Of a stretch of 64,000 bases of DNA, positions 26,900-44,507 are shown piece by piece (the stretch's first letter is position 1; every line of letters begins with the position of its first letter). Source of the stretch: Bacteroidales bacterium. GTDB lineage: Bacteria; Bacteroidota; Bacteroidia; Bacteroidales; UBA932. The notes below the pieces were generated by a model that saw only the letters and a list, made by a program, of their open reading frames with translations, made no database searches and had not been told where the DNA came from. Made by a program: the position numbers and the translations under genes. The stretch lies in NCBI GenBank assembly GCA_017429475.1, contig JAFROX010000006.1, positions 252,008 through 316,007 of the forward strand, written 5' to 3'.

Positions 26900-29800
26900 A
26901 TGATCACACTTCCAGAACATATTACAAAATGTATATACCGAGTTGATAAGAATGCTGTATGGCGTTGCTTTGCCAAAGAAACCAACTCAATCGATACGGA
27001 CAACAGATCTAGCATAAAGTCTTTAAAGCCTTTTATCGTTGAGCAAGGAGGTCGAAAGATTTTACTGACATCAAATCGTGAAACAGCTATTCCCGCCGAA
27101 TGTGACTTCGCGATTCTGATTAATCACCAGATCAACTCTGCCTCATTTGCAAGAAAAGAGTTTGAGGTCAGAGAGTGGCTCAAACATCCGGCAATGATGG
27201 ACGCTATGTCTCCAGATGATGTCGCTAAATCCTGGCGCGGAAAGTTTAACTACCTTCAGGAAGATAAAGAGGAAGATTTAAAAGGTCTTCGGGAACCGCA
27301 GGTTGCCGCGATACACGCATACCTGTCAAAGAAGTATACATTAAAGGACAGAGCCACCATTGTGATGCCAACTGGCACAGGCAAAACCGAAACAATGCTT
27401 GGCATCATGATTGCGGCCCAGTGTAAGAAGGTATTGGTAACAGTTCCTCACGATGCTCTCAGGGGACAAATCTTCAACAAATTCCTTACACTGGGGTGTC
27501 TCCCAGAATTTGGGATAGTATCTACTGATTGTCGATACCCTTATGTGTCCATCGTAAGTTCTGGAATGGATGTGAATGGCTGGCAAGAGATTGTGTCGCG
27601 TTCCAACGTTATCATTACAACTATGCCTTTGCTCGCCCAGGTGTCCGATGAAGTCAAGGGTTATCTTGTGAGTATAATCACAAATCTTTTCGTGGACGAA
27701 GCACATCATACGGAAGCAGAAACCTGGAGCAAGTTCCTGGACTCATTCCCACGAAGCAGTATCGTTCAGTTCACGGCTACGCCATTCCGCAATGATGGAC
27801 GAAAATTGAGAGGAGAATTCATTTACGCATTCTCTCTCCGTGCCGCCCAAAAACAGGGCTACTACCAGAAGATTAACTTCAAGCCGGTTTATGAGATTGA
27901 CAGGAAGAAGGCTGATGCAGCCATTGCACGTAAGGCTGTTGAAATCCTTCGTCAAGACCTCGTTGCAGGATTCGACCATATTCTCATGGCTCGTTGTAGA
28001 GACAAAAAACGCGCGGATCAAGTTATAGAACACTACAGACCCTTTGAAGATTTGGCCCCTGTTGTTATTTATAGTGGTATGGCTGGTCAACAGCCACTTT
28101 TGGAAGAAATCAAGCGTGGCGAGCATAGAATCGTTGTTTGTGTCAATATGCTGGGGGAAGGTTTCGATCTCCCTCAACTCAAGGTCGCAGCAATTCATGA
28201 TGAGAAGCATAGCCTTCCCATTACCCTCCAGTTTATCGGACGTTTTACCAGAACGGCTGGCCATAATATAGGGGAAGCCAGTTTCGTGACCAATATGGCA
28301 TACCCTCCTATGGCAGAGGATATTAGAGACCTGTATCTCAAAGATGCTGATTGGAACATCATTATTCCAGGCTTAAATGACAGGACCACAGACGAGGAAA
28401 TAGCTTTTGCCGACTTGCTCAAAGATTTTCCGGACCTTAATGATTCCGACATACCGTTTCAGAGCATCAACCCTGCTTTGAGTACCGTTATTTACCGCCT
28501 GGACCATATGGATTGGGAAGCGGACAATTGGCAGGCGGTCTATACTGAACAGGATTATGATTATCGTTATCAAAATGTCAACGAATCTGGAGATTTGATG
28601 GTCATAATATTAGGCCGTCTGGAAAACTTGGATTGGAGTAATTTTGAAGGCCTACAGAACCGCACCTGGAATGTAATCCTCCTGTACAAGTATAATGCTG
28701 GTAACTACAAACACCTATACATTAATTCATCTCTTAGAGGAGCCTCTTTTGACAGATTGGTCGAGGCGTTATTTGGAACAAAGCAGACTCTGCTAGATGG
28801 CCAAACCATCTTCCGATCTTTCCATGGGCTTAACCGCATCTTGGTTCAAAACTTTGGCGGACGCAAAGCCATATCCGGAGATATTTCGTTTAAGTCGTAT
28901 GTGGGTCGAGATGTGGAGAATGGATTAAGCGAAGCCTCTCAAGGGAAATTACGGCAGAATAATATTTTCGCATCAGGAATCCTTAAAGGTGAACGTATTA
29001 CCCACGGATGCTCTATGAAGGGCAAGATATGGAGTTACAGGCGAGGCAACCTGCTTTCGTTCAAGAACTGGGCAAAGCGCATAGGTGCGCTGGTTGAAGA
29101 TCCTACGATTCCCACCGACGAATTATTTAAACACACTTTGACAGTTAATTCGGTTGCTTCTTGCCCGAATTCTGTTCCTATCGCAATCGATTGGGATGAT
29201 GAAATATATAGAAACATAGATGCCGAACAAATGCTCCGCTTTGAAGGGCTCGAACAGGAAGTATACCTTTTTGATGCATCATTGGAAATCTCTAGGCGTG
29301 AGTGGGACCCCAATAATCTTCCTTCCGATATTATGTTTGAGATCTCAAATGGGGAGTTTAAATCTCAGTACAAGATAACATATACCTCGGTAGCAGAGGA
29401 CAACGTGACCAAGTACGGTTATTCGGTAGAGAAGGTATCTGGCCCTAAAGTGTCCTTCCGTGTTAACCAGATTGCATATGGAGACATCACAGATTACTTC
29501 AATGCAGAAAAGCGTTCGCCGGTTTTCTTTTTTGCCGATGGATCGATGCTTTACGCTAACAATCTAGTTGCTCTTCGGAACATAACTACACCCATCAGTC
29601 CGGATGAACTTATCGCCCTTGACTGGGACGGTGTGGACTTGAATATCGAGTCGATGGATTGGCCGCATAAGGAAAACAGTATTCAATATCATATCTGGCA
29701 AAGCATCAAGGATGAGTACGAGTTCATATTTGATGATGATGGCAGTGGCGAGATTGCAGATCTTATCGGAGTTAACCAAGATGCCAAGCATATTTATGTC

Positions 29801-30175
29801 AGCCTCTATCATTTGAAGTTCGCTGCAGAGGGCAAGGTTTCGCAGCGTATTTCAAACTTTTATGAGGTCTGTGGCCAGGCACAGAAAAGCCTGAAATGGA
29901 AGAATCCCGATATGGATATTTTCCGCCGTATGATAGAGAGAGTGACTAACACGGAAAAGGCGGAGAATCGCATACTAAAAGGCAAATTGGAAACCCTAAA
30001 ACAATTCTCTCAGGACGCTTCTTTTACCAAGAAAGTAATAGTAAGTCTTCATATTGTACAACCCGGGCTCAGTAAGTCAAGGACACCTGCTGATATCCTT
30101 CAGTTACTCGGGGTCGTGAAGAACTATGCATTTGAGGTTTGTAATGCCTTGTTGAGTGTGTATTGCAGCCAGTAA
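26900..30175 (+). CDS. Large DEAH-box helicase with nuclease-like C-terminal motif
   Basis: The 1091-residue protein has SF2 motifs in order: MPTGTGKTETM (motif I, ~154-164), VDEAHH (II), FTATPFR (III) and QFIGRFTR (VI). About 600 further residues follow. Near 945-985 the sequence GEIADLIG...YVSLYHLKFA then FYEVCGQAQKSLKW resembles a PD-(D/E)xK nuclease core, with acidic residues followed by His-x-Lys. The protein therefore looks like a restriction- or defence-type helicase-nuclease. It does not match Gabija or a type I HsdR that I recognise. Its operon partner seems to be truncated just upstream. Confidence 0.8.
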   Translation: MITLPEHITKCIYRVDKNAVWRCFAKETNSIDTDNRSSIKSLKPFIVEQGGRKILLTSNRETAIPAECDFAILINHQINSASFARKEFEVREWLKHPAMMDAMSPDDVAKSWRGKFNYLQEDKEEDLKGLREPQVAAIHAYLSKKYTLKDRATIVMPTGTGKTETMLGIMIAAQCKKVLVTVPHDALRGQIFNKFLTLGCLPEFGIVSTDCRYPYVSIVSSGMDVNGWQEIVSRSNVIITTMPLLAQVSDEVKGYLVSIITNLFVDEAHHTEAETWSKFLDSFPRSSIVQFTATPFRNDGRKLRGEFIYAFSLRAAQKQGYYQKINFKPVYEIDRKKADAAIARKAVEILRQDLVAGFDHILMARCRDKKRADQVIEHYRPFEDLAPVVIYSGMAGQQPLLEEIKRGEHRIVVCVNMLGEGFDLPQLKVAAIHDEKHSLPITLQFIGRFTRTAGHNIGEASFVTNMAYPPMAEDIRDLYLKDADWNIIIPGLNDRTTDEEIAFADLLKDFPDLNDSDIPFQSINPALSTVIYRLDHMDWEADNWQAVYTEQDYDYRYQNVNESGDLMVIILGRLENLDWSNFEGLQNRTWNVILLYKYNAGNYKHLYINSSLRGASFDRLVEALFGTKQTLLDGQTIFRSFHGLNRILVQNFGGRKAISGDISFKSYVGRDVENGLSEASQGKLRQNNIFASGILKGERITHGCSMKGKIWSYRRGNLLSFKNWAKRIGALVEDPTIPTDELFKHTLTVNSVASCPNSVPIAIDWDDEIYRNIDAEQMLRFEGLEQEVYLFDASLEISRREWDPNNLPSDIMFEISNGEFKSQYKITYTSVAEDNVTKYGYSVEKVSGPKVSFRVNQIAYGDITDYFNAEKRSPVFFFADGSMLYANNLVALRNITTPISPDELIALDWDGVDLNIESMDWPHKENSIQYHIWQSIKDEYEFIFDDDGSGEIADLIGVNQDAKHIYVSLYHLKFAAEGKVSQRISNFYEVCGQAQKSLKWKNPDMDIFRRMIERVTNTEKAENRILKGKLETLKQFSQDASFTKKVIVSLHIVQPGLSKSRTPADILQLLGVVKNYAFEVCNALLSVYCSQ

Positions 30176-32111: not shown

Positions 32112-33923
32112 ATGTATCTTTCAAATATAAAACTTTGGAACTTCAGAAAGTTCGGAAACTTGGGCGACATAGACCTGCAGCGTCCAAACCTTGACTTATC
32201 CTTTACAAAAGGACTGAATGTTTTGATTGGTGAAAACGACTCGGGAAAGAGTGCAATACTTGAAGCTATCAAGATGGTTCTGAAGACTCATGCCTACGAG
32301 AGGTTGATATGGGTAAAAGAGGATTTCTATGAGGGGACAGACGAGTTAAGGATAGAGCTTCTGATAGATGGTTTGACGAACAGCGAAGCAGCACATTTCA
32401 CAGAGTGGCTCGGATGGACTGATGGCATTCCCCAAAGACCCGTTTTACGACTGATATGTACCGTAAGACTGATTGATGACAAACCAATCCCTCAGGAAAT
32501 AAAAGCAGGAATGGATGAGGCTGGAGCAGCTATAGATAGCCAAGCGAGAGAATACCTGAAGGTAACATTCCTGAAGCCGCTACGTGATGCTGAGAGTGAG
32601 CTAACAGCGAAGAAATACAGTAGATTGTCGCAGATACTTGAAGGGCATGATCTTTTTAAGAAGGGAGCAGATGGAAAGGAGTCACTTGAAGACTATGTAA
32701 CTGAAGCAAACCGGCAGATAAAAGAGTGGTTTGAAAATGATGCGGCTGAGAATGGGCAATTAAGCAACAAGGAACAAATCAAAGGAGTAATAGACGGATT
32801 CCTTGGTAGCTTTATCCACAAGGATACGGCATCGTCTTTCTCAATTTCAGGGTCTCATATAAGAGAAATACTGGAGAAACTATCACTGAACCTTGATGGA
32901 GTAATAGGGCCTGGACTAGGGACAATGAATCGTCTTTATATGGCAGCAGAACTGTTGCACTTGCAGAAGCCGGGATGGAATGGTATTAAACTCTGCTTGG
33001 TTGAGGAGGAAGAGGCTCATCTGCATCCCCAGGCGCAGATGAAGGTGTTGGAAACGATACAGAAGCAAAAAGGAACGCAGTTTATTATCACCACACACAG
33101 CCCGAATCTGGCATCAAAAGTTAGACTGTCGGATGATGATCTGAATCAGGTCGTAATCTGTAAGGCTGGGAGAGCTTTCCCAATGGGGCCGACATATACT
33201 CAACTAGACAAAGACGACTATGAATTCTTGGATCATTTCCTTGACGTGACCAAAGCGAACTTGTTCTTTGCTAAAGGTATTATCCTTGTTGAGGGATGGG
33301 CGGAGGAAATCATTCTGCCAGCGATAGCGCAAGGAATGGGGAAAGACCTAACAGCACATGAAGTGAGTATCATCAACGTAGGATCGACGGCATATTTGCG
33401 CTATGCCAAGATATTTATGAGACAAGACCAGGAGAGCATGGGCTGCAAGGTTGCAATTGTCACGGATTTAGATGTTGGGCCGAATGATGACGACGGGCAG
33501 TTTAATGCAGCCAAAGAAGCAGAGAAGAGAACAAGTATAACAGAGAAAGTAAATACGGTCAACTATCCAGACGTTAGTTGGCATATTGCAGAACACTGGA
33601 CGCTGGAATGGTGTCTGAATGAATCGAGCAAGTTTGGAGACTTGTTCAAGGAAGCTGTGAGCAAGGTGCATACAAGGACGGATGCATTCAAACAAGAGAA
33701 TGGTCAATTCAAGACGGAAGACTTTAAAGCAGAACTGACTGACAAACTTAGGAAGTACAAAATAGACGGAGAGGGCAAACATGTAGCCACTACACAACTT
33801 GACAAAGTAGAGGTAGCCTATCAATTTGCGAAGCTTTTAAAAGGGGCAGTAGTAGATTATGAACACTTCGATGGTGATTCAGCAAAGTATTTGGTGGATG
33901 CCATTAACCATGCATGTAGTTAG
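32112..33923 (+). CDS. gajA: Gabija-like GajA: OLD-family ATPase with TOPRIM nuclease domain
   Basis: The 603-residue protein starts with an ABC-type ATPase half: FRKFGN, then Walker A GENDSGKSAIL (~38-48), and Walker B LVEEEEAHLHPQAQ (~296). The second half is TOPRIM: LVEGWAEEIILP (Glu ~394) and VAIVTDLDV (Asp ~450). This is the layout of OLD nucleases and of GajA, which nicks phage DNA when nucleotide pools fall. A UvrD-like helicase gene follows after 3 nt, as in Gabija. Length is close to known GajA. Confidence 0.85.
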   Translation: MYLSNIKLWNFRKFGNLGDIDLQRPNLDLSFTKGLNVLIGENDSGKSAILEAIKMVLKTHAYERLIWVKEDFYEGTDELRIELLIDGLTNSEAAHFTEWLGWTDGIPQRPVLRLICTVRLIDDKPIPQEIKAGMDEAGAAIDSQAREYLKVTFLKPLRDAESELTAKKYSRLSQILEGHDLFKKGADGKESLEDYVTEANRQIKEWFENDAAENGQLSNKEQIKGVIDGFLGSFIHKDTASSFSISGSHIREILEKLSLNLDGVIGPGLGTMNRLYMAAELLHLQKPGWNGIKLCLVEEEEAHLHPQAQMKVLETIQKQKGTQFIITTHSPNLASKVRLSDDDLNQVVICKAGRAFPMGPTYTQLDKDDYEFLDHFLDVTKANLFFAKGIILVEGWAEEIILPAIAQGMGKDLTAHEVSIINVGSTAYLRYAKIFMRQDQESMGCKVAIVTDLDVGPNDDDGQFNAAKEAEKRTSITEKVNTVNYPDVSWHIAEHWTLEWCLNESSKFGDLFKEAVSKVHTRTDAFKQENGQFKTEDFKAELTDKLRKYKIDGEGKHVATTQLDKVEVAYQFAKLLKGAVVDYEHFDGDSAKYLVDAINHACS

Positions 33924-33926
33924 CAG

Positions 33927-35927
33927 ATGGACATAAAGCCTAATAACATAGCAAAAGCTGAGCAACTGTTGCTGCCTGATGGCTGTCACTTTGACGAGGA
34001 GCGAATTCAGTTTATCAACAGACTAGAGAGTGGAGATTTGCTGGCCGTGCCCGGTAGCGGAAAGACTACTGCACTACGGGCGAAACTCTACTGTATGGCC
34101 AAAGAACTGCCTATGAAAGACGGAAGGGGCATACTGGCATTGTCGCATACGAATGTTGCAGTGGATGAGCTTAAAAAGATGTTGCAAAACCACTGCCCAC
34201 AGTTGTTTGAATATCCGAACTTTGTAGGAACCATACAGGAGTTTGTAGATACCTTTTTAGCTCTGCCATACTATGTACAGAAGTATGGACACAGAGAGGA
34301 GATTATTGATGCAGATCAGTATGAGCGGGTATGCTCCTACATCATGAACAAGCCTGGTCAGATTACGTCCTATTTGTCTGGTAAGTTAAGATATGGAAAG
34401 GACTATAAAAAAATAAGACTAGGCTATTCTGATGACGGGCGTGATATTTTGAGGTTTGGAATAGAAGGGAAAGAGGTTGTTATAGAACCTGAACCTAAGT
34501 GGGTGAGAGATGGAATTGCCGAAGAAAAGGTAGCACAACTGAAAGACTTCCTATTTAAGATGAAAGAGAAGATTCTGGATTTGGGGGTGTTGCATTTCGA
34601 TGATTGCTACTATTTGGGCGAGACGTATATCAGGGAGCATCCCGTCATTATTGACATATTGAGGAAACGGTTTGCCTATGTGTTTGTGGATGAGTCTCAG
34701 GATATGAAAGGGTATCAGCTAAATCTTATCGATAAATGTTTTAACTGTGACTCGGTGGTTCTGCAAAGGATAGGAGATCCCAATCAAGCTATCTTTGATG
34801 GTTTTTCCGTGGACAATACCTGGGAAAACAGGAATCCTTTTTTCATCAACAATTCGCTCCGATTGACACATGAGGTGGCCTCAGTTGTGGATCATCTCGT
34901 ATTGGACAGAGGTGATGACGGTCAAGGTAGAGCACGGTTTGTGGTGAACGGAGTACGACCACAGGAGCCAGTTATACCGCGCTATCTGTTATTATATACC
35001 CAAGACACAATAGGCGGGTTGAAAGAGAAATTTAAGGAGGTGATACGGTCGCATCATCTTGAATCGATAGCAGAGGCGGGGAAATATGGTTTCCACATTG
35101 TAGGATGGAATTCTGAGACTAAAAATGATGTAGCCCATAGGCGATTAGAGGATATTTTCCCTGAGTATCACAGGAATCTGAGTAAACCCAATGCCAATCC
35201 AACGACATTGAGCGAACAAATACAATTAGAGAGACATATAGGTAGCTTCAAGGAGTCGAGAAAAACTGTACTGGAGGTGTTTGTTAAGGTTCTGAGAATG
35301 GCGGGACAGAGACCACCAGACAGACGATTGTTTACAGTAAACAAGTTGCTAGCCATGTTGAAAGAAGAAGCCCAGGAGGCTCAACAACAGTTCAGAGAGG
35401 AGCTGCTTGAATGTACCAAGAAACTGAGTGAAGGCGTATGGAGAGATGCCTATATTATCATTAAGGCAACCACCACCAAATGGCTAAATAATTTTTTCCA
35501 GCAACAGCCAAATGAAAAGGTGACTGCATTCTATGAAGAGGCCTTCGCCCCATTGATACCAATGGCAGAGGCGCAGGATGCTGACGACATTGCTATCAGT
35601 ATAGGAACCGTACACTCGGTGAAGGGCATGACTCACTGTGCGACGATGTATGTAGAGACTTCTTATAACAACAAGTATGAGTCAGAATACATGATAGAAG
35701 ACAAGACAACGGGAAGAGGAAGAAATAAGGTAAGGACAGTGACAAGCCCGTTTTTGATGCAGGATTTGCCGCCTAACGGTAATAATGCTGCTATGGCTAA
35801 GCGGATGTTATATGTGGGTTTTTCCAGGCCTACACACCTACTATGCTATGCATCGGATAAAAGAGTTTGGAAGGACGATGTGTTGCAGATGATGAAAGAT
35901 GTAGGGTGGAAGGTTGAGAATGTTTGA
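33927..35927 (+). CDS. gajB: Gabija-like GajB: UvrD/Rep-type helicase
   Basis: The 666-residue protein has SF1 helicase motifs: VPGSGKTTALRAK (motif I, ~40-52), SHTNVAVDEL (Ia), FVDESQDMKG (II), RIGDPNQAIFDGF (III), VHSVKGMTH (V) and AKRMLYVGFSRP (VI). It begins 3 nt after gajA, so the two are certainly co-transcribed. It is longer than the ~500-residue type GajB; the extra length lies between motifs III and V. Together they fit the Gabija anti-phage system. Confidence 0.83.
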   Translation: MDIKPNNIAKAEQLLLPDGCHFDEERIQFINRLESGDLLAVPGSGKTTALRAKLYCMAKELPMKDGRGILALSHTNVAVDELKKMLQNHCPQLFEYPNFVGTIQEFVDTFLALPYYVQKYGHREEIIDADQYERVCSYIMNKPGQITSYLSGKLRYGKDYKKIRLGYSDDGRDILRFGIEGKEVVIEPEPKWVRDGIAEEKVAQLKDFLFKMKEKILDLGVLHFDDCYYLGETYIREHPVIIDILRKRFAYVFVDESQDMKGYQLNLIDKCFNCDSVVLQRIGDPNQAIFDGFSVDNTWENRNPFFINNSLRLTHEVASVVDHLVLDRGDDGQGRARFVVNGVRPQEPVIPRYLLLYTQDTIGGLKEKFKEVIRSHHLESIAEAGKYGFHIVGWNSETKNDVAHRRLEDIFPEYHRNLSKPNANPTTLSEQIQLERHIGSFKESRKTVLEVFVKVLRMAGQRPPDRRLFTVNKLLAMLKEEAQEAQQQFREELLECTKKLSEGVWRDAYIIIKATTTKWLNNFFQQQPNEKVTAFYEEAFAPLIPMAEAQDADDIAISIGTVHSVKGMTHCATMYVETSYNNKYESEYMIEDKTTGRGRNKVRTVTSPFLMQDLPPNGNNAAMAKRMLYVGFSRPTHLLCYASDKRVWKDDVLQMMKDVGWKVENV

Positions 35928-36021: not shown

Positions 36022-36819
36022 ATGACAAGAAATATCAAGTTATACAAGTATCTGGACGTGAATGGTGGATTGATGATGCTACACAATAGCAATCTGCAGT
36101 TCACTAATGCCACGCGCTTGAACGACCCTTTCGATTGTCATCCTGCCCTTTTCGATTTTTCTAACGCACCTGAGTATCCAAACAATTGGCCACCGAAAGA
36201 TTTCATGGTTGAAAAAGGGAAAATTGATACGGAAAATTTGCGGAATAGCGCGTGGATATGCAGCCTCTCAAAGATCCACGACTCCCTGCTGATGTGGAGT
36301 TATTATGGAAATCACAAGGGCGTATGTGTTGGTCTAGATATGGAGAAAGCTAATAAGTACCTCTCAAGTATCCAATGCGGCATCTATGTCGGCGCAATGG
36401 AAATGGAGGTCCAATATCGGGATGTGATTGACAAACCCGATTATTTTCGTGACGCCAAAGACTTTTTCCGCTACCAATTGTCCACTAAAGCAAAAGCATG
36501 GGAACACGAGCAGGAAGTGAGATTGTTGCTCTTGGACCCGACTCCCGCCGGCAAATTACAACATCCTTTTTATACCCCTATGGCATTGCCCTATAGGCCC
36601 AAATGTAAAAAAGAGGTTATTGACTGGAAAGAAATGCGTGCATACCCGCATCTTGGTAGCGAGTGCTTTGATTCCCTGTATTTGGGTATCAAAATAGAAC
36701 AGAAGAAACGTGAGAGAATAATTGCAGAAGCTCGCAAGTGCAATCCTGCTATTAAAGTATTCCAAATGACAATAGACCCCGATGCCTTTAGGCTGAAAGA
36801 AGAATTGATAATAGAATAG
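36022..36819 (+). CDS. DUF2971 protein
   Basis: The 265-residue protein has the DUF2971 pattern: LYKYLDVNGGLMMLHNSNL, FTNATRLNDPFDCHP, then WICSLSKIHDSLLMWSYYG and GVCVGLD, and KAWEHEQEVRLL. The domain is widespread, often near defence genes, and its biochemical role is unknown. It follows the Gabija pair by 94 bp on the same strand and may be extra cargo or an accessory. Confidence 0.85.
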   Translation: MTRNIKLYKYLDVNGGLMMLHNSNLQFTNATRLNDPFDCHPALFDFSNAPEYPNNWPPKDFMVEKGKIDTENLRNSAWICSLSKIHDSLLMWSYYGNHKGVCVGLDMEKANKYLSSIQCGIYVGAMEMEVQYRDVIDKPDYFRDAKDFFRYQLSTKAKAWEHEQEVRLLLLDPTPAGKLQHPFYTPMALPYRPKCKKEVIDWKEMRAYPHLGSECFDSLYLGIKIEQKKRERIIAEARKCNPAIKVFQMTIDPDAFRLKEELIIE

Positions 36820-37015
36820 TTTATAAACACATCATAATATCTGGGGCCAGATACTGTGAAACACAAATCTCACCAGCGATTGCTGGCCACTTGGCTACGT
36901 TACGTGTAGCGGGTACATTTGGAGTTGTTCGTCCGCTATGTCATTAATATATTGAGAAGGTTTCTTAGATTACATAACTTCCGCGAACAAAAAATATTTA
37001 TAATAAATTGCGTAT

Positions 37016-37609
37016 ATGGAAATTGACTTGTATCTGAAACTAATGGAAGAAATCAAGGCCCGTATGAAGGCTGTCAGAGATATAATGACGAAGAAAACGA
37101 CGACTTCTTTCGAACAGACTAACATTGAGTTTGCCTGCTTACAAATAAGGAAAATACTGGAGCTGATAACAATGGGCTCTTTAGTTGCCAATCAAGAACT
37201 ACTAAAGTCAATTAATGCTGATTATTCAAACTATTGGAATGCTAAAAGGACATTATCTAAGATTGAAATACTCAATTCTCATTTTTACCCAGAACCCATT
37301 ATTGAAAAACCCTCTTCTAGAGAGGGAGTCATAAATGACTTGGTAAGTGTAAAGAGTGACTATCTCACTCGTGAAAAGTTAGAGATTATTTATGATTCGT
37401 GCTGCAATATCATTCATGCAAACAATCCATTTGCGGATAATATAAACTATGATTACTATGCAGCTAGAATATCTGAATGGTATAGATTAATAATGGCGTT
37501 ATTGCGTATACATCTTGTAAAGTTTAAAGAAGGGGAAATGTATTTAATACATATGGAAGAAAAGGATGGTCGTGTTCATGGATATCATTTTTCACAATGC
37601 GAAGAGTAG
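37016..37609 (+). CDS. Unknown soluble protein in the repeat-flanked cassette
   Basis: The 197-residue protein has no signal peptide or membrane helix. It is rich in helix-forming residues (MEIDLYLKLMEEIKARMKAV; FACLQIRKILELITMG) and reads VSVKSDYLTREKLEIIYDSC near the middle. I do not recognise the family. It is the last gene before the right-hand att-like repeat and is clearly AT-rich. Confidence 0.65.
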   Translation: MEIDLYLKLMEEIKARMKAVRDIMTKKTTTSFEQTNIEFACLQIRKILELITMGSLVANQELLKSINADYSNYWNAKRTLSKIEILNSHFYPEPIIEKPSSREGVINDLVSVKSDYLTREKLEIIYDSCCNIIHANNPFADNINYDYYAARISEWYRLIMALLRIHLVKFKEGEMYLIHMEEKDGRVHGYHFSQCEE

Positions 37610-37824
37610 ATTTTCCTTAAAAGATTGATACAATACCCGAGCACTTCAGATGAAATGCCACGATTAAGAGATGGTCAGAAATGGGCTAACTTATTGGAAT
37701 CATTTTCGGATCAATCTAAGAGAAATCTGTCATTTTGATTATCAAAATGCTTTAGAGGCTTTGTGATGGATGTATATGGTTTATTTGCAGATTATACTTC
37801 CCGATGTAGATTATTTTATTTATT

Positions 37825-37920
37825 GCTAATCAATTAGCTTTTAGCTGTGCGGGTTTTGGCTCAAATGTGGTTCGATAATATCGGTAATAACTCCCACGAA
37901 ACCAGTACTAAAACGAACTT
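37825..37920 (+). repeat. Right copy of ~100-bp att-like direct repeat
   Basis: The perfect palindrome GCTAATCAATTAGC is followed by CAAATGTGGTTC, TCGGTAATAACT, CCACG and TACTAAAACG in the same order and nearly the same spacing as at 30285-30388. The ~200 bp before it (37610-37824) holds nothing I can identify. Confidence 0.6.
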
Positions 37921-37929
37921 TATTACTCA

Positions 37930-38131
37930 ATGGATAATCCGCACTAAACTAACACCCTTGTCCGCTTGAGAATGCCCCCCCCTCCTTGACCTAAGAATAG
38001 AAACCTATATAGAATGCAGGCTGGAGTGGTTTTCCATCCCTACAGCCTGCATTTTAGATTACGATGAAAGAAATAGATAACGGGGACCAATTAGGTATGA
38101 ATTGAGGGGCGGTTTAGTGCGGATTCTCCAT
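37930..38131. mobile_element. MITE-like element 1 with 20-bp terminal inverted repeats
   Basis: ATGGATAATCCGCACTAAAC at 37930-37949 is the inverse of 38112-38131 with one mismatch. Inside lies a hairpin (GCAGGCTG...CAGCCTGC). No gene fits in 202 bp. A related copy is at 38996-39217. Confidence 0.65.
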
Positions 38132-38138
38132 CATCGTT

Positions 38139-38515
38139 ACTGATAAAAGCTGGCACAGAAGAAATTCGAAAGAAGGATGAAGGTCAAGCGACACCACCTG
38201 AAGTTCACCGACAGATGAAACGGCCCCGTAGAAGGATCATCATCTACGGTCAGTACAGTTCGGAGCAGATCTGCTGCCGGTTCCGGTTGATGGTAAAAGG
38301 GATCATATGTGCGGAAACTATTCACCGATGGATTTGGCATGAGAAGCGCTGGGGCAACGACGAGTTGGCGCGTATCCTTATGCATCACGGGTGACGGAAA
38401 CAATGATTGACAACTTATACTGGTCTAGGGAAACTATCCATGACAGGGTTGGCATATCGCTGAGGCCGTCAATTGTAGATGAGAAGAAACGCCGTACTGG
38501 CCATAGATGTAGTTT
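38139..38515 (+). pseudogene. IS30-family transposase remnant
   Basis: In shifting frames the stretch encodes KLAQKKFERRMKVKRHHLKF, GQYSSEQICCRFRLMVKGI, CAETIHRWIWHEKRWGNDEL and DRVGISLRPSIVDEKKRRTG. These match in order the IS30 transposase core (SPEQI..RL, ETIYRWIY, and RV.I..RP.IVDE..R.GDWE). Frameshifts and missing ends show it is dead. Confidence 0.75.
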
Positions 38516-38568
38516 AGGGTGGACATATTACAAGGTCTTACTATATCAATTACTCATTTCAATAATGG

Positions 38569-38995
38569 CTATGCGTCAATATCATATGATATCTCGTTAA
38601 TTAAACGCTCTAATTCGTTGAAATCTTTATGCCATAGCCCGCATCTTGATAGGTTGTTTTTTAGTTGCACATAATACTCGTCATGAGTCAGTGTGGTCGC
38701 TTTTACTGCTGAGTATGGTGTGGTTGGTCGACACAACTCTAATAATGCTCTAACATCATTGCAGAGTTTGTATTTGAAACGATTGCCTGTTCTATTTCCA
38801 GAAATAACTAATTTTGATTTCTCTTTGAGATCTTCAACCTTTGTGGCAATTTCTTGCGAAATACTTAATCTAGATTGAATGTGTTTTTCTTGATTATTAA
38901 GATCTAATGTGCTTATTGTCGTATCTCCCAAATCATCGTTCTCCTTTGCTCTAAATCGGATGTTGTTTTTGAAATATAAGTGATCTTGGGGCCTA
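38569..38995 (-). pseudogene. Truncated gene cut by MITE-like element 2
   Basis: The frame runs from inside the MITE (39138) to a stop at 38569, but only about 142 residues after the MITE edge look native: NNIRFRAKENDDLGDTT, then a helical stretch (SISQEIATKVEDLKEKSK) and GLWHKDFNELERLINEI. The N-terminal part was replaced by the element. I cannot name the original gene. Its strand and position suggest it once lay at the 3' end of the TIR operon. Confidence 0.5.
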
Positions 38996-39217
38996 TTGGA
39001 AATTCCGTTGCAAAGTGACCCCCTTCGTCCGCTCTCATCGTGACCCCCCTCGTCCTTTTGAGAATGACCTCCTGGGTTACTATCAGAAACATAAACAGAA
39101 TGCAGGCTGGTGCGGTTTTTCATCCCTACAGCCTGCATCTCAGATTACGATGAAAGAAAAAGATAACGGGGGTCAATAGGTGTGAATTGAGGGGGCAGTT
39201 TATTGCGGATTCTCCAT
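38996..39217. mobile_element. MITE-like element 2
   Basis: Imperfect ~28-bp terminal inverted repeats bound it (38996-39023 against 39190-39217). Inside are repeated TGACCCCC boxes near one end, GGGGGTCA near the other, and the hairpin ATGCAGGCTG/CAGCCTGCAT. Multiple end repeats recall IS21-type ends. It is clearly related to element 1. Confidence 0.65.
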
Positions 39218-39244
39218 ATAAGCTCTTATTATGTAACAGAATGA

Positions 39245-39856
39245 TTAGCAATTCCCGTTCTTTCTCCGCATATTCCTACTCAAATCATAGGGCTGAGTCA
39301 ATCTGTTATTATAGGCATTATCGAGCATCATAATGAGGTTATCTGGTGTCAGTTTTTCCCATGTTGTCACCGAAATCTTGACCCCATCTTTCATCAAATT
39401 GTCTATAATACGTTCGGGCATATCAGGATAACGTCTCTCGTATTCACTTCTTGAATCAACACTAACCCAATTTGTAACTTCTGGATAAATCTGCGCCTTC
39501 TCGTTGGCGTATGGTATATGGCAGTCTTCGCAATAAGTTTCTGGTAGCATTACCACAACAATCCCCGATCTTTTGTTCTTCTTACCGTCGTACATACTTG
39601 AATAAATTTCCCAATCAACATGTTTACGGTGTCGAGTGTTCGGCCCTACAAGCAGAATTGTGACGGAGGTGTCCTGAAGGTATTCATCACGAATTGTCTC
39701 TCGTATTTTTTGATCATCCCAGTCGTCCGGTATATCCCCCGTATCAACTGAACCATCAATAAAAACGTCATTATTTTTAGCCCATTCTACTAAACAATCC
39801 TTATAATGTTGATCGTCACGATGGTAAAAACTTACAAAAACTCTATGCATGTCCAA
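39245..39856 (-). CDS. MTH538/ThsB-type TIR-like protein
   Basis: The 203-residue protein matches the MTH538 TIR-like family (DUF1863) that includes ThsB of Thoeris. It has RVFVSFYHRDD at the N-terminus, VFIDGSVDTGDIPDDWDD, then SVTILLVGPNTRHRKHVDWE with Glu83 at the expected TIR glutamate position. In Thoeris such proteins sense phage and make a NAD-derived signal. It starts 14 nt inside the end of the TIR-SLOG gene, so the operon is tightly coupled and this is its last gene. Confidence 0.8.
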   Translation of the reverse strand: MDMHRVFVSFYHRDDQHYKDCLVEWAKNNDVFIDGSVDTGDIPDDWDDQKIRETIRDEYLQDTSVTILLVGPNTRHRKHVDWEIYSSMYDGKKNKRSGIVVVMLPETYCEDCHIPYANEKAQIYPEVTNWVSVDSRSEYERRYPDMPERIIDNLMKDGVKISVTTWEKLTPDNLIMMLDNAYNNRLTQPYDLSRNMRRKNGNC

Positions 39857-41825
39857 TTGTATTTTTTAGTCCTTTAATAATCAACCCTACAATTTCTATA
39901 ACATCCGTAGATTGAAATATAATATCATTATCTTCATTTCCTAATCCGTTGTTAAGACAATCTATACCATTTGCCACAATTTCTTTCAATTTGCTATAGC
40001 CCATATCTATACTTTGATCATGGCAGAAAGACATGAAATCAACATAGCTAGGTTCTTCACAAGCTTCCTTAATAACATCTTCAACGCTCTTTTCTTTATT
40101 GAGAAGGGAGATGATTCTTGATGCGGCGCCTCCAAATCCACCCAATAAAAATATTGGATGGCCTGCCAATGCCGATTGAATAAATTCTTCTATTACACCA
40201 GGCATAAAACCGCTAAAACCAGATGGGCGGCCACCAAGAATCACTCTCGCATTCGTCTCTGCTTCCATTTGTCTCCGCATCTTCGATAATGACAATGCAT
40301 AGATATATTTATTGCCATTATTGATTGGTGCTATTGGTTTTCCTTTATCTCCACCATATTCTTCTGGACATGCCACGAATACCGATTTAACTCGACTATG
40401 TACATATTGTAACTTTATCTCAGTAGTAAAGCTAAGATGAATTGGCCATGCAAAGTAATTGCGGAAAAAGAAGGTATCATGATCAGCGTTCCCCTGATAA
40501 TTTTTATATTGTAATGACATGTCACTGAAAAGTTCTGTATAACCATCTCGTCTTAAATCACCACCATATACCATGTTAGCACCTGCAATAAGCAAATGTC
40601 GTGATAGTTCGATGGTCAAGTCTCGTATCATATCTGCTCCATATCCTAGTACATCTGAATCAGGAGCTTCAGATACAGAAATTGCTATGCTCTTTCCTTT
40701 AAGATTTACAGTTTGCGCCAGTAATTGCATCGGGGTAAGGAATTGCTTATTATTACCGGCAATTTTCTTCAGTACATCTAGCTCGTCTTTTGTAAGAGGT
40801 GGTTCAGGATAAATAATGTTCGATGCAAGTTCATCGTATACATATGAATAAGCTTCAGGAGAGAATGGCAAGACCTTAAAGGTGCTTCTATCCGGTTCTT
40901 CCATTTCCTCACGAAGATTTTCCAGATACTGTGCTTGACAATATTGATCTAAAGCTGTTCGCAACATCAGTATTAGAACATCCCCCCAGTTGTCTTTGAA
41001 ACGGATATACGGTATGTTAGAGATGTAAGGGAAACTACGTTTCACTTCACCATCTAGTAGACTCACTGCTATTGCGGGTATCTTGTTACTCTTTGCAAGG
41101 AGTACCTCTTTTTGGCACCATTCTCTTTCAGAATAGGTATTCGAATTCAAGATGACGAGTAGTGATTGTTCTCCTGTTGCATTGTTCTTTATTTGTTTTT
41201 CAAAGTCCTGCCCGTCGAGAATATCACTAGCATCAAAGAATGAATCTAACTTTGTTTTTGAGCGAATGAAATCTCGGAATTCTATTGCACGTTTTTGACC
41301 AATTTTATTCTCATCTTTCTTTGAGTGACTGATAAAAATCTTTAGTTTCGTCAGTTCTTTTCTGATAATAAAGCGGATAATATTGTCTAATAATCGTATC
41401 TGAAATTCCTCCCAATTATCTCGTATAGAGAATGACTTCAAGCGTATAAACTGTTTATCAGATAGACCATGACCGATGTCAAAGGCAAATTTGCTCAATT
41501 CAACACAGACAATGTGTACCTTATCTGGATTATCATGTTCTAGTGCCACCACTTCTCCTAAATACTTTTTCCACACATCACTACAATACATCTCGTCATC
41601 TACTAATAATAAGATAAATGTTTTGTCTGTATTATCCAAACTGATTGACTTTATGTTTCTCATCTTCTCGTCATCTCCAGTTCGCAGATAAACAGGGATG
41701 TCTAAGCCGTCCTCAAAAGGATGGTTTGCATCGCGACAAAGTAGTTTGTAGATATCGCTATAAGTGTCTTTTCCCATCTCGAAGCGGGAATTATATAGCA
41801 CATATACAGCCAAGTTCTTTTTCAT
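39843..41825 (-). CDS. TIR-like + TIR + SLOG-like multidomain protein
   Basis: The 660-residue protein shows three parts. Residues 1-155 look like a diverged TIR fold (AVYVLYNSR, FILLLVDDEMYCSDVWKKYL). Residues 160-285 are a clear TIR domain (LKIFISHSKKDE, FFDASDILDG, SNTYSEREWCQKEVLLAK) with candidate catalytic Glu240. Residues ~376-580 look like a SLOG-type nucleotide-binding Rossmann domain (KSIAISVSEAP, NMVYGGDLRRDGYTELF, ARVILGG, PIFLLGGFGGAAS). SLOG binds NAD-derived signals in ThsA of Thoeris, where the effector half is SIR2; here a TIR domain would be the NADase. It overlaps both neighbours (4 and 14 nt). Function is inferred. Confidence 0.78.
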   Translation of the reverse strand: MKKNLAVYVLYNSRFEMGKDTYSDIYKLLCRDANHPFEDGLDIPVYLRTGDDEKMRNIKSISLDNTDKTFILLLVDDEMYCSDVWKKYLGEVVALEHDNPDKVHIVCVELSKFAFDIGHGLSDKQFIRLKSFSIRDNWEEFQIRLLDNIIRFIIRKELTKLKIFISHSKKDENKIGQKRAIEFRDFIRSKTKLDSFFDASDILDGQDFEKQIKNNATGEQSLLVILNSNTYSEREWCQKEVLLAKSNKIPAIAVSLLDGEVKRSFPYISNIPYIRFKDNWGDVLILMLRTALDQYCQAQYLENLREEMEEPDRSTFKVLPFSPEAYSYVYDELASNIIYPEPPLTKDELDVLKKIAGNNKQFLTPMQLLAQTVNLKGKSIAISVSEAPDSDVLGYGADMIRDLTIELSRHLLIAGANMVYGGDLRRDGYTELFSDMSLQYKNYQGNADHDTFFFRNYFAWPIHLSFTTEIKLQYVHSRVKSVFVACPEEYGGDKGKPIAPINNGNKYIYALSLSKMRRQMEAETNARVILGGRPSGFSGFMPGVIEEFIQSALAGHPIFLLGGFGGAASRIISLLNKEKSVEDVIKEACEEPSYVDFMSFCHDQSIDMGYSKLKEIVANGIDCLNNGLGNEDNDIIFQSTDVIEIVGLIIKGLKNTIGHA

Positions 41826-42367
41826 GCGTATGAATCCATTATTTTGTTTAATACGTGATTTGCATTACTTTCTGAGAACGACCTATCCTCTACTATTAAC
41901 TGATTCCTGTTAGTTCTCCTAATACTTGCTATTAAATTGTTTAGTTGATAAATACTCATCACGGTATTTACTACCTTCAAATACTCGGGTAGTTTCGCTT
42001 TATCTACGCCTTTTAAACGGATAATATTCAGCGTGACACTTGAATTGTAAGCATATCCTATTTCCCAAGGCACCCACATAGAATCATATGTGTTGGGAGA
42101 GAATAATACTAACATATGACTACTATTCTCAATACCTCTCTTAATTGCATTAACCACCGATTGTGGATCTGATCTGTTGATGCTATTGTCATATTGGTCA
42201 AAGTAAACATCAATGCCAGCGGCCTGTAGATAGTCCGCAATGGTCCTCGCTGCATCGGAATCTTTTTTCTGATGACTAATAAAGACTCTCGGTTTCTCCG
42301 ATGTGGGTCGAGGAAGTACTCCGTTATAACGATCTTTTAGATAATAATAGTTTATACCTCTAACCAT
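41822..42367 (-). CDS. TIR domain protein, first gene of the TIR operon
   Basis: The 181-residue protein has a short N-terminal lead and then a TIR domain: PRVFISHQKKDSDAARTIAD, VYFDQYDNSIN, MLVLFSPNTY and SMWVPWEIGYA with Glu102 as candidate catalytic residue. TIR domains of this kind cleave NAD or make cyclic ADP-ribose isomers. Its stop overlaps the next start by 4 nt. It may be a second signal-producing TIR beside the ThsB-like one. Confidence 0.85.
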   Translation of the reverse strand: MVRGINYYYLKDRYNGVLPRPTSEKPRVFISHQKKDSDAARTIADYLQAAGIDVYFDQYDNSINRSDPQSVVNAIKRGIENSSHMLVLFSPNTYDSMWVPWEIGYAYNSSVTLNIIRLKGVDKAKLPEYLKVVNTVMSIYQLNNLIASIRRTNRNQLIVEDRSFSESNANHVLNKIMDSYA

Positions 42368-42381
42368 ATTTTCAGAATTAC

Positions 42382-42636
42382 TTATTTATTTAATTGAGGA
42401 ATAACCTTTTTCAACTCATCAAGTCTGAATGGTTGTTTACAACAAAGAGTCTCATCATTGGAGATTAGGCTATCAGTTTGATTTGTTTCTATCGAAGCAA
42501 GGTATTTATTCAAGTCATCATAATCATTCAATTTATATGCAACTTTATAGAACTTTGGAATATTTCCAAATACAACATTTGGACATCCAGCAATAATAAC
42601 GCAGGAAGCTAATCTTGAAATGCTTCTTGTTTTCAT
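42382..42636 (-). CDS. Possible small lipoprotein upstream of the TIR operon
   Basis: From an ATG at 42636 the frame gives 84 residues, with a basic start and a lipobox-like IIAGC (Cys18), followed by a polar region (NDYDDLNKYLASIETNQTDS). It ends 15 nt before the TIR operon start on the same strand. The frame extends further upstream to 42792 with poor coding character. Nothing else supports it. Confidence 0.35.
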   Translation of the reverse strand: MKTRSISRLASCVIIAGCPNVVFGNIPKFYKVAYKLNDYDDLNKYLASIETNQTDSLISNDETLCCKQPFRLDELKKVIPQLNK

Positions 42637-42808
42637 TTTGTTTTGACAATGGCTTTGGCATTTCAAAGGTCGGCTTCTTGAAAGAGGATTCAAAGGATTT
42701 GGGGTAACATATGATTGCTCATAATGAATTGATACTAAGAGATTGATGTTTTGAGATTGGTAACATTGCGTTCTTTTACGGGAAAAACCCATTGAGGAAG
42801 AAATGTTT

Positions 42809-44449
42809 CTAATGAGAGTTTTTCATCTCTAGAAGCCTCATGAAGAGTTCTTCATCCGGAGCGTTGGCGGCCTTGATTTCTTTGCGGAAGCGGGACTTGG
42901 CAGTCTTGAGGCTATCAATGGATACGCGATTCATCACAAGTTGCACTGTGCTGTATGGCAAGCCGGCGAAGAAAAGTGAGATTAGCTTGCGGTTTTCTCC
43001 TTTGATTACAGGCACTTGATCTTTAAGTTTTGTCATAACTCCGTCGCAATAACGGTCAAGGTCCTTTTCCAGAGAGAGGAACAAATCATCGTTCGTTCTT
43101 AAAGCTGCTATTTCTTCCTTGAAATCCTTCAAGGCAACTAATCTCTCCCTGTCGTTGTCTGCGCGGACATAGTCAGCCGAAAGTCTGTCAAGATGGTTGA
43201 ACTTTTCGCTGAAAAGAGAGCCTAAAAGTGAAGCGTTTGTCTGCTCTGCCTGATGGAGTTCTGATTGTGCGACGGAGAGGTTGAGCATCTGTTCCTGGAT
43301 TTCCTGTTCTTTTCGCTTACGATAGGATAGAGTTAGACCAGATAGAAGTGCCAATGCGAGTAGACCAGTTGTTGTACCAAGGCGGTTGCGTTCGCGTAAC
43401 CTTACGGCACGTTCCTCTAGAAACAGAGACTCGGCCTTGTAGTAATCTCTTTGTGCATTACTAACGGATTGCTGCAGCAGTACCCTGGTCAATGAGTCCT
43501 GGACGAAAGCCGCATTTCTTGTCAGCTGATATGCCTCTGCATATTTTCCACGGCGGTGCAGGATATCTGCGTACATAAAATCAATGCCAACTGAATCGGG
43601 CTGACTCATGCATAGAGAATATGCATTATTTATAAGTTTGTCCGTAGAGTCTCTTTTGCCAATACTTTCCATCGCCAATGCATAAAAGCAATAATCTTGA
43701 GAATTAAAAAGATTTTGCGGTGCGCTTCTTAATAGACGAATAGCTTCAGTGAGGTCCTCGTCCAACTCAATCATTATGACGGCTTTTTCTAGAGAATAAT
43801 AGTCATTAAGATTATCATTATTATATGCAAGAACTGACTCTAGTTGTTGTTGCGCTTTGGAGAAATTATGGCTATTGATATAGCTGATGGCCAATCCTAA
43901 TTCTGTATATGCAGCGTAATCGGAATTGTCCAAGTATTTAAAGTGATTGATAGCCTCCATTAAGCTGGATTGGGCAGCTTGATTATTAAGTGTTTTAGTA
44001 TAAATATCTCCTTTCCTCAAATGTATAAGGCCAGCGTACAAATGATCTTCTAAATCCAAGGCATCTTTCTCGGCTTTTTCCAATGCTATAATAGCAGCAG
44101 TATAGTCAGCGGCATTATCCAGGATAAGACCTTGATAATAATAAGCCATCATCCTGTGATGTCGGTCCTTTCGGACAGAGTAATAATCCGCAGCAATCTT
44201 TATTAATGTGTCTGAAACCACATCAATGTAGTTTTTATCTAGTGCGGCACTCATCAATAAAGCAAATCGTGCCTTTTCTTCTCTTGTCCTTAGGTCGTTT
44301 GGCACAATGGCTTCCAGTATGGTCAGACAACTGTCGGGTTTAGTCTGAAGCAACGACTCTGCTGAGTCCATTATTTTCTTGGTTCTCAAGTTGCAGCATG
44401 CCGAAACTGTCGTGACCAATAGAATAGAAATAAATAGGGTGCGTTTCAT
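42809..44449 (-). CDS. TPR-containing membrane regulator-like protein
   Basis: From the ATG at 44449 this is a 546-residue protein with an SPII-like signal (VSAC). It has a long alpha-helical region with TPR-like repeats (~20-340), one membrane helix (~TTGLLALALLSGLTL), a coiled coil (EIQEQMLNLSVAQSELHQAE) and a C-terminal segment (LISLFFAGLPYSTVQLVMNR) that looks like a diverged helix-turn-helix. Bacteroidales encode many such proteins as presumed membrane-linked regulators. It is divergent from the DUF3244 gene, whose leader holds the shared 108-bp element, so it is a candidate regulator of that set. Confidence 0.75.
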   Translation of the reverse strand: MKRTLFISILLVTTVSACCNLRTKKIMDSAESLLQTKPDSCLTILEAIVPNDLRTREEKARFALLMSAALDKNYIDVVSDTLIKIAADYYSVRKDRHHRMMAYYYQGLILDNAADYTAAIIALEKAEKDALDLEDHLYAGLIHLRKGDIYTKTLNNQAAQSSLMEAINHFKYLDNSDYAAYTELGLAISYINSHNFSKAQQQLESVLAYNNDNLNDYYSLEKAVIMIELDEDLTEAIRLLRSAPQNLFNSQDYCFYALAMESIGKRDSTDKLINNAYSLCMSQPDSVGIDFMYADILHRRGKYAEAYQLTRNAAFVQDSLTRVLLQQSVSNAQRDYYKAESLFLEERAVRLRERNRLGTTTGLLALALLSGLTLSYRKRKEQEIQEQMLNLSVAQSELHQAEQTNASLLGSLFSEKFNHLDRLSADYVRADNDRERLVALKDFKEEIAALRTNDDLFLSLEKDLDRYCDGVMTKLKDQVPVIKGENRKLISLFFAGLPYSTVQLVMNRVSIDSLKTAKSRFRKEIKAANAPDEELFMRLLEMKNSH

Positions 44450-44507
44450 AGTAGCGTTATTACTCAAAAGTAATAATTATAGAACGTATAGTGTCGTATT
44501 ATAGCTA

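Follow-up and report, generated by a model that had tools for sequence, protein, structure and literature searches.

A 64,000-nucleotide stretch of a Bacteroidales genome (assembly GCA_017429475.1, contig JAFROX010000006.1), hereafter the window, holds a compact operon of three overlapping open reading frames (ORFs) that run on the minus strand from 42367 to 39245 and whose products are annotated by Pfam as a TIR protein, a TIR plus SLOG protein and a ThsB-type TIR protein. The first gene (41822..42367) encodes TIR protein 1, of 181 amino acids (aa); the second (39843..41825) encodes a 660-aa putative effector made up of a TIR-like region, a TIR domain, a linker and a SLOG cluster2 domain; and the third (39245..39850) encodes a ThsB-type TIR protein of 201 aa counted from its ATG. 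The genes overlap by 4 nucleotides (41822-41825) and 8 nucleotides (39843-39850), and a remnant of a fourth TIR gene lies at 42385..42579 on the same strand. A preliminary description of this DNA had placed three overlapping genes here and read them as a Thoeris-like operon; the ORFs and overlaps were confirmed, and the evidence below supports that reading. GC content is 37% at 40001-42000 compared with 52-59% close to both ends of the window.

Within the 660-aa protein, Pfam TIR_2 matches residues 163-279 (E 1.2e-9) and LD_cluster2 ('SLOG cluster2', PF18163) matches residues 375-635 (E 2e-67), such that the catalytic half of the SLOG protein is a TIR, as had been proposed. The TIR domain, delimited as residues 156-300, carries Glu240, which is Glu in all 21 aligned effector rows; Phe164, Ser166, His167 and Trp236 are invariant across the same rows. 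The linker between TIR and SLOG contains the motif YPxPPL (residues 339-344), formed by linker residues invariant in the alignment of relatives (A1). Residues 1-155 had no Pfam match at E 1. They align end to end with the protein's own TIR domain by hhalign, weakly (P 0.0077, Prob 5%), and position 91, the counterpart of Glu240, is Glu in only 5 of the 21 rows. We take this N-terminal region to be a dead TIR, as a reading and not a proof. Of the domain order previously given for this protein, the TIR with Glu240 and the SLOG domain stand, and the TIR-like N terminus is the weak part. A sequence search of the PDB with the 660-aa protein returned no relevant relative (four matches, E 0.24-0.63). 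Profiles built from relatives in which the protein is split gave a single 25-residue match for SLOG (E 0.073) and 11 TIR-type chains at E 0.01 for TIR-TIR, the best being a plant TIR (4.5e-7).

Both small proteins match TIR profiles. TIR protein 1 matches Pfam TIR_2 (E 1.2e-17), and its best PDB profile matches are 8btn_B (1.1e-28) and AbTIR 8g83_A (9e-24); the putative catalytic Glu102 named in the preliminary description is present and is invariant in 12 of 12 rows (alignment A5). The 201-aa protein matches ThsB_TIR (PF08937; E 6.6e-21, 75 bits, cut-off 21.2), and its putative catalytic Glu81 is invariant in 18 of 18 rows (alignment A6); the rows of A5 and A6 were chosen by us. A PDB search with the ThsB-type protein gave no match at E 0.01. 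Its family assignment had been correct and its numbering shifted, as an upstream TTG start had been used: the residue then called Glu83 is Glu81 from the ATG. Each of the two is a putative phage sensor and signal producer. The fourth-gene remnant retains the C-terminal 65 residues only, without the catalytic region, and was found by tblastn with the intact fourth TIR of a related locus, L003 (5376-5942), at 62% identity over 66 columns (E 1.7e-20); the TIR1 hidden Markov model matches the ORF at 42382-42792 at 1e-05. As the fourth TIR is intact in L003 and a remnant in the window, we suggest that TIR sensors are gained and lost whereas the responder is retained. No other TIR matches were found outside the operon in the source genome, which is 80% complete.

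Comparison with the relatives L002 and L003 gave ratios of non-synonymous to synonymous substitution rates (dN/dS) of 0.066-0.112 for all three genes. Purifying selection acts on each of them, and these low ratios show that the three genes are real and constrained. Over the stretch compared (36900-44500), DNA similarity to L002 and its near copy L005 spans 39250-42361 and, in addition, 70 bases at 42491-42560, similarity to L003 covers 39245-42579, and similarity to L004 covers only 40118-41828; the flanks of the operon had no match in any of these four loci. With similarity confined to the operon and differing flanks, the operon behaves as a cassette set in differing surroundings. In the 660-aa gene (39843-41825), the SLOG part diverges more from L002 and L003 than the TIR part does, in amino acid identity (77-84% versus 95%) and in dS (0.59-0.98 versus 0.26-0.30), which may be explained by exchange of the SLOG segment through recombination.

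The SLOG assignment of residues 375-635 rests on the profile matches and on alignment with the pocket of ThsA, the effector of type I Thoeris. Among the residues that mark the ThsA ligand site are Ser288, Arg371 and Glu403 (PMC7272460), and 3'-cyclic ADP-ribose (3'cADPR) is coordinated by Arg371, Lys388 and Glu403 (PMC10022894). By hhalign, Arg371 corresponds to Arg517 and Glu403 to Glu547, each kept in 23 of 23 rows; Lys388 corresponds to Arg533, which is R or K in 18 of 23 rows; and Ser288, aligned by way of the type III protein ThcA, corresponds to Ser383, again present in 23 of 23. The SLOG domain thus keeps the residues that align with the ThsA ligand pocket, and we refer to this site as a putative pocket. 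STALD, the SLOG family of ThsA, exceeds its 24-bit cut-off on the LD_cluster2 protein of genome G331 (26.1 bits) and on the ThcA of locus L051 (31.8 bits).

To describe the distribution of this system we assembled 25 loci, the window and 24 relatives (L numbers). An initial genome scan had found four loci. Among 299 genomes of the family, 2 scored over the cut-off of the SLOG model and two others gave a match under it; among 395 genomes of the phylum, 7 scored over it, and both counts include the source genome. Plasmid carriers comprised 11 records from Bacteroidota, Bacillota, Cyanobacteriota, Pseudomonadota and Actinomycetota. A split version from Klebsiella had partial matches in 12 of 5426 Escherichia coli genomes, covering 51% of the query at 74% identity in the 10 matches listed; the one E. 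coli locus inspected is of the split kind, and two small TIR genes immediately precede it. Phage records contained no match to the system. A search of viral contigs with the window protein found no relative, and searches with alignments found two contigs. One of these, a 10.6-kb IMG/VR contig (L035:1036-9043), carries a split system, a divergent ThsB-type TIR gene and, as judged by eye, an integrase-like gene; on the strength of that gene in a virus-collection contig, the system may ride on prophage-like elements.

TIR-TIR and SLOG are fused in 9 of the 25 loci (the window, L002, L003, L004, L015, L016, L017, L028 and L032) and encoded by adjacent separate genes in 13 (L018-L022, L024-L027, L029, L031, L033 and L035); a contig end cuts the unit in L036. 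One TIR lineage is therefore joined to or paired with SLOG in 22 of 25 loci, and this is the new point of our analysis. Mapped on a joined TIR and SLOG tree of 21 rows, the fused and split states required 3 changes (the mean of shuffled states was 6.9, and values as low occurred in 2 of 500); the deep branches are weak, and we conclude no more than that the best tree has more than one change of state. In 23 of the 25 loci, additional TIR genes are found at E <= 1e-6 no more than about 3 kb away; the extra TIR gene of L023 is a weaker match only (5e-5), and L030 has none. The preliminary description had proposed looking for the same three-gene order elsewhere, and the order TIR1, TIR-TIR-SLOG, ThsB-type TIR indeed recurs in L002, L003, L032 and L005. 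With 86-87% DNA identity to the window, L002 and L003 do not count as independent cases; L032 is more distant, at 46% protein identity. L003 and L032 carry one more TIR gene upstream than the window does.

The nearest named system is type III Thoeris, for which we used the NCBIfam models NF058525 (ThcA, 184 positions, cut-off 110 bits) and NF058526 (ThcB4, 375 positions, cut-off 220 bits). ThcA had no match on the 660-aa protein at E 0.1 and none in the source genome at E 0.001, and its best score among the scanned relatives was 19.1 bits, for the SLOG protein of L018. ThcB4 scored 36.8 bits on the 660-aa protein, below its cut-off, and split relatives gave faint matches to both models. Searching the phylum for ThcA identified 5 of 390 genomes above cut-off, the window's genome not among them. 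In four of the five loci (L047, L049, L050 and L051) ThcA is immediately preceded by a ThcB4-like TIR gene, and further TIR genes are present; the three scanned with the ThcB4 model (L049, L050 and L051) exceed its cut-off, the ThcB4 of L047 is cut by a contig end, and the contig of L048 ends before the ThcB4 position. From these loci, and not from a published definition, we read a type III gene plan in which ThcB4 has other TIR genes at its side and the SLOG gene comes directly after it, and the window and its relatives fit this plan. Profile comparison by hhalign aligned TIR-TIR with ThcB4 (E 6e-10) and SLOG with ThcA (E 5.7e-6). A PDB search with one ThcA found no match at E 0.1.

A quick tree of 64 TIR rows, in which the program's own mark for support is 95, pointed the same way. 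Window-type effector TIRs fall together with those of ThcB4 (support 84), apart from both flanking TIR classes; the first small TIR joins its type III counterparts (87); and the ThsB-type TIR clusters with a type I ThsB and with rows from type III (93). Like the window, type III Thoeris has one SLOG protein, further TIR genes of the same two classes and overlapping genes. They differ in that type III places a TIR protein of about 390 aa directly upstream of the SLOG protein, whereas in the window this TIR partner is fused to SLOG; in addition, the SLOG of the window is cluster2 (PF18163), whereas the two ThcA proteins scanned are cluster3 (PF18180), a related family. The system in the window thus matches the type III plan part for part, with the equivalents of ThcB4 and ThcA joined. 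We file it as a sister variant rather than a member of type III because its scores fall far below both the ThcA and ThcB4 cut-offs. Among the matches listed in a search of open-access literature there was no description of type III Thoeris or of a TIR-TIR-SLOG operon; subscription papers lie mostly outside this search, and we do not claim that the arrangement is unpublished. The preliminary description had missed the type III parallel, the SLOG as a separate gene in 13 loci and the fourth-TIR remnant.

Other named systems fit less well. Type I Thoeris shares with the window a ThsB-type TIR (the 201-aa protein matches this component, PF08937), a SLOG joined to a domain able to consume nicotinamide adenine dinucleotide (NAD), and the kept pocket residues. 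Its ThsA carries SIR2 and a STALD SLOG, whereas the window has a TIR in place of SIR2 and a different SLOG family. We rejected type I, as the operon has no SIR2 match and STALD scores 12.5 bits against its cut-off of 24 on the 660-aa protein; STALD also had no match in the source genome at E 0.001. Type II (a transmembrane and macro-domain ThsA) and type IV (a caspase-like protease effector) were rejected as the three operon proteins contain no macro-domain and no peptidase match, respectively. In TIR-SAVED, TIR-STING and the CARF-TIR protein Cat1 a messenger-binding domain drives a TIR enzyme (PMC12948488), as proposed here; in those systems an enzyme of another class supplies the messenger, a cyclic nucleotide, whereas the putative makers in the window are themselves TIRs. 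STALD is described as a SLOG family that associates with Sir2 or TIR (PMC7272460), and SLOG-TIR immune systems are named in PMC7824862.

The operon is probably an anti-phage system of the Thoeris kind, a sister of type III with fused parts, in which the small TIRs signal, the SLOG domain binds the signal and the fused TIR destroys NAD. In this scheme the two small TIR proteins would recognize phage components and convert NAD into a small ADP-ribose-type messenger. The messenger would be bound by the SLOG domain of the 660-aa protein and would make that protein oligomerize, the dead N-terminal region perhaps serving as a scaffold for the active TIR, and the fused TIR would then destroy NAD and halt the infected cell ahead of phage release. 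NAD consumption by the fused TIR and the identity of the messenger are both inferred. The catalytic Glu is kept in all aligned rows of the three TIR classes (21/21, 12/12 and 18/18), and the loci share a constant part, the TIR-TIR/SLOG unit, and a variable part, the set of small TIRs. In Thoeris, likewise, one ThsA is described as accompanied by one ThsB gene or by several (PMC11204291), and in a staphylococcal Thoeris two ThsBs act jointly, ThsB1 binding the capsid and ThsB2 making the messenger (PMC12578639). Our division of roles, with small TIRs sensing and signalling and the SLOG-TIR protein responding, follows this pattern of a constant responder and variable TIR sensors. In view of the same two reports, having two putative signal producers next to one SLOG protein is not unusual, contrary to the preliminary description.

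Several observations weigh against this picture. Direct profile similarity between the SLOG domain and ThsA is weak (hhalign E 0.0024, Prob 12%), the 660-aa protein lies under the Pfam cut-off for STALD, and the alignment of its N-terminal region gives the TIR-like nature of that region weak support. The ThcB4 alignment is largely TIR domain and would be partly common to other TIR proteins; the joining of window-type and ThcB4 TIRs was flagged as long branches meeting, and its support of 84 does not reach the program's mark of 95; and one of the 12 rows of the first small TIR, that of L015, is placed apart from the others. Two loci also break the pattern. In L023, from a Rhizobium plasmid, the N-terminal and TIR parts are in separate ORFs and an IS3 transposase gene separates the TIR and SLOG genes (L023:3441-6760), and in L030 the SLOG gene stands alone, with no TIR gene on its 6.3-kb contig (1 of 25 loci).

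The strongest rival, which we nonetheless think unlikely, dispenses with a diffusible messenger: the small TIRs would attach to phage proteins and serve, by direct contact through the N-terminal TIR-like region, as the template for a mixed assembly of TIRs, and SLOG would gate the assembly by sensing NAD or an ADP-ribose metabolite. It would account for a Glu-less TIR-like region kept ahead of the active TIR in 21 aligned rows, and it has a precedent in staphylococcal ThsB1, whose putative catalytic residues are dispensable while ThsB2 makes the messenger (PMC12578639). However, both small TIR classes keep their catalytic Glu in the rows aligned, and residues that align with the ThsA messenger pocket are conserved in the SLOG domain. 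Somewhat less probable still is that the 660-aa TIR makes or amplifies the messenger, or that SLOG is an enzyme that makes or removes it, with killing done elsewhere. Enzymes do exist among SLOG families (PMC9503650), and the fused TIR carries a complete catalytic motif; yet the source genome lacks a match to the SLOG family of ThsA, and no other gene was seen recurring beside the unit in most annotated neighbourhoods, where non-TIR recurrence was not searched systematically and a uracil-DNA glycosylase gene recurs in three alphaproteobacterial loci. That the operon is a metabolic NAD regulator instead of an immune system is very improbable given its scattered occurrence (above cut-off in 2 of 299 genomes of the family and in 7 of 395 of the phylum), its plasmid and virus-collection carriers, and its Gabija and AbiL-like neighbours.

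If the Thoeris-type reading with a SLOG-bound TIR effector is correct, it bears on multi-TIR Thoeris operons, in which the sensing, signalling and killing TIRs are hard to tell apart. The TIR lineage fused to or adjoining the SLOG receptor is likely to be the executioner, and by parallel ThcA of type III Thoeris is predicted to have ThcB4 as its effector partner. For finding the messenger, a protein expected to bind it and to destroy NAD in one and the same chain would be a convenient object. A more speculative extension, which we offer tentatively, is that LD_cluster2 systems form a separate, unnamed Thoeris type spread over at least five phyla, E. coli and Klebsiella included, with a distinct messenger; its TIR responder may make more of that messenger, closing a self-amplifying all-TIR circuit. 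Burroughs et al. reportedly predicted SLOG-TIR systems by comparative genomics in 2015.

The operon sits in what looks like a defence island. Gabija is represented at 32112-35927, 3.3 kb from the operon, by a pair of genes that seems complete (GajA, 603 aa; GajB, 666 aa), after which comes a DUF2971 protein (36022-36819) that matches the candidate defence family PDC-S31. In the same island, a 1091-aa helicase-like protein (26900-30175) has weak PADLOC matches only (PbeA, E 5e-12, over part of its length). AbiL-like genes lie just upstream in L003. Among the relatives, a uracil-DNA glycosylase gene is found near the system in three alphaproteobacterial plasmids (L020:137-820, L021:3254-3922 and L023:2594-3265), and beside the E. 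coli split system (L033:11355-15145) a TIR protein is encoded next to a protein with a nucleotide-kinase domain, together with a thymidylate synthase. Just downstream of the operon in the window, at 39005-39065, there are repeated TGACCCCC-type stretches that we guess by eye to be remnants of insertion-sequence ends.

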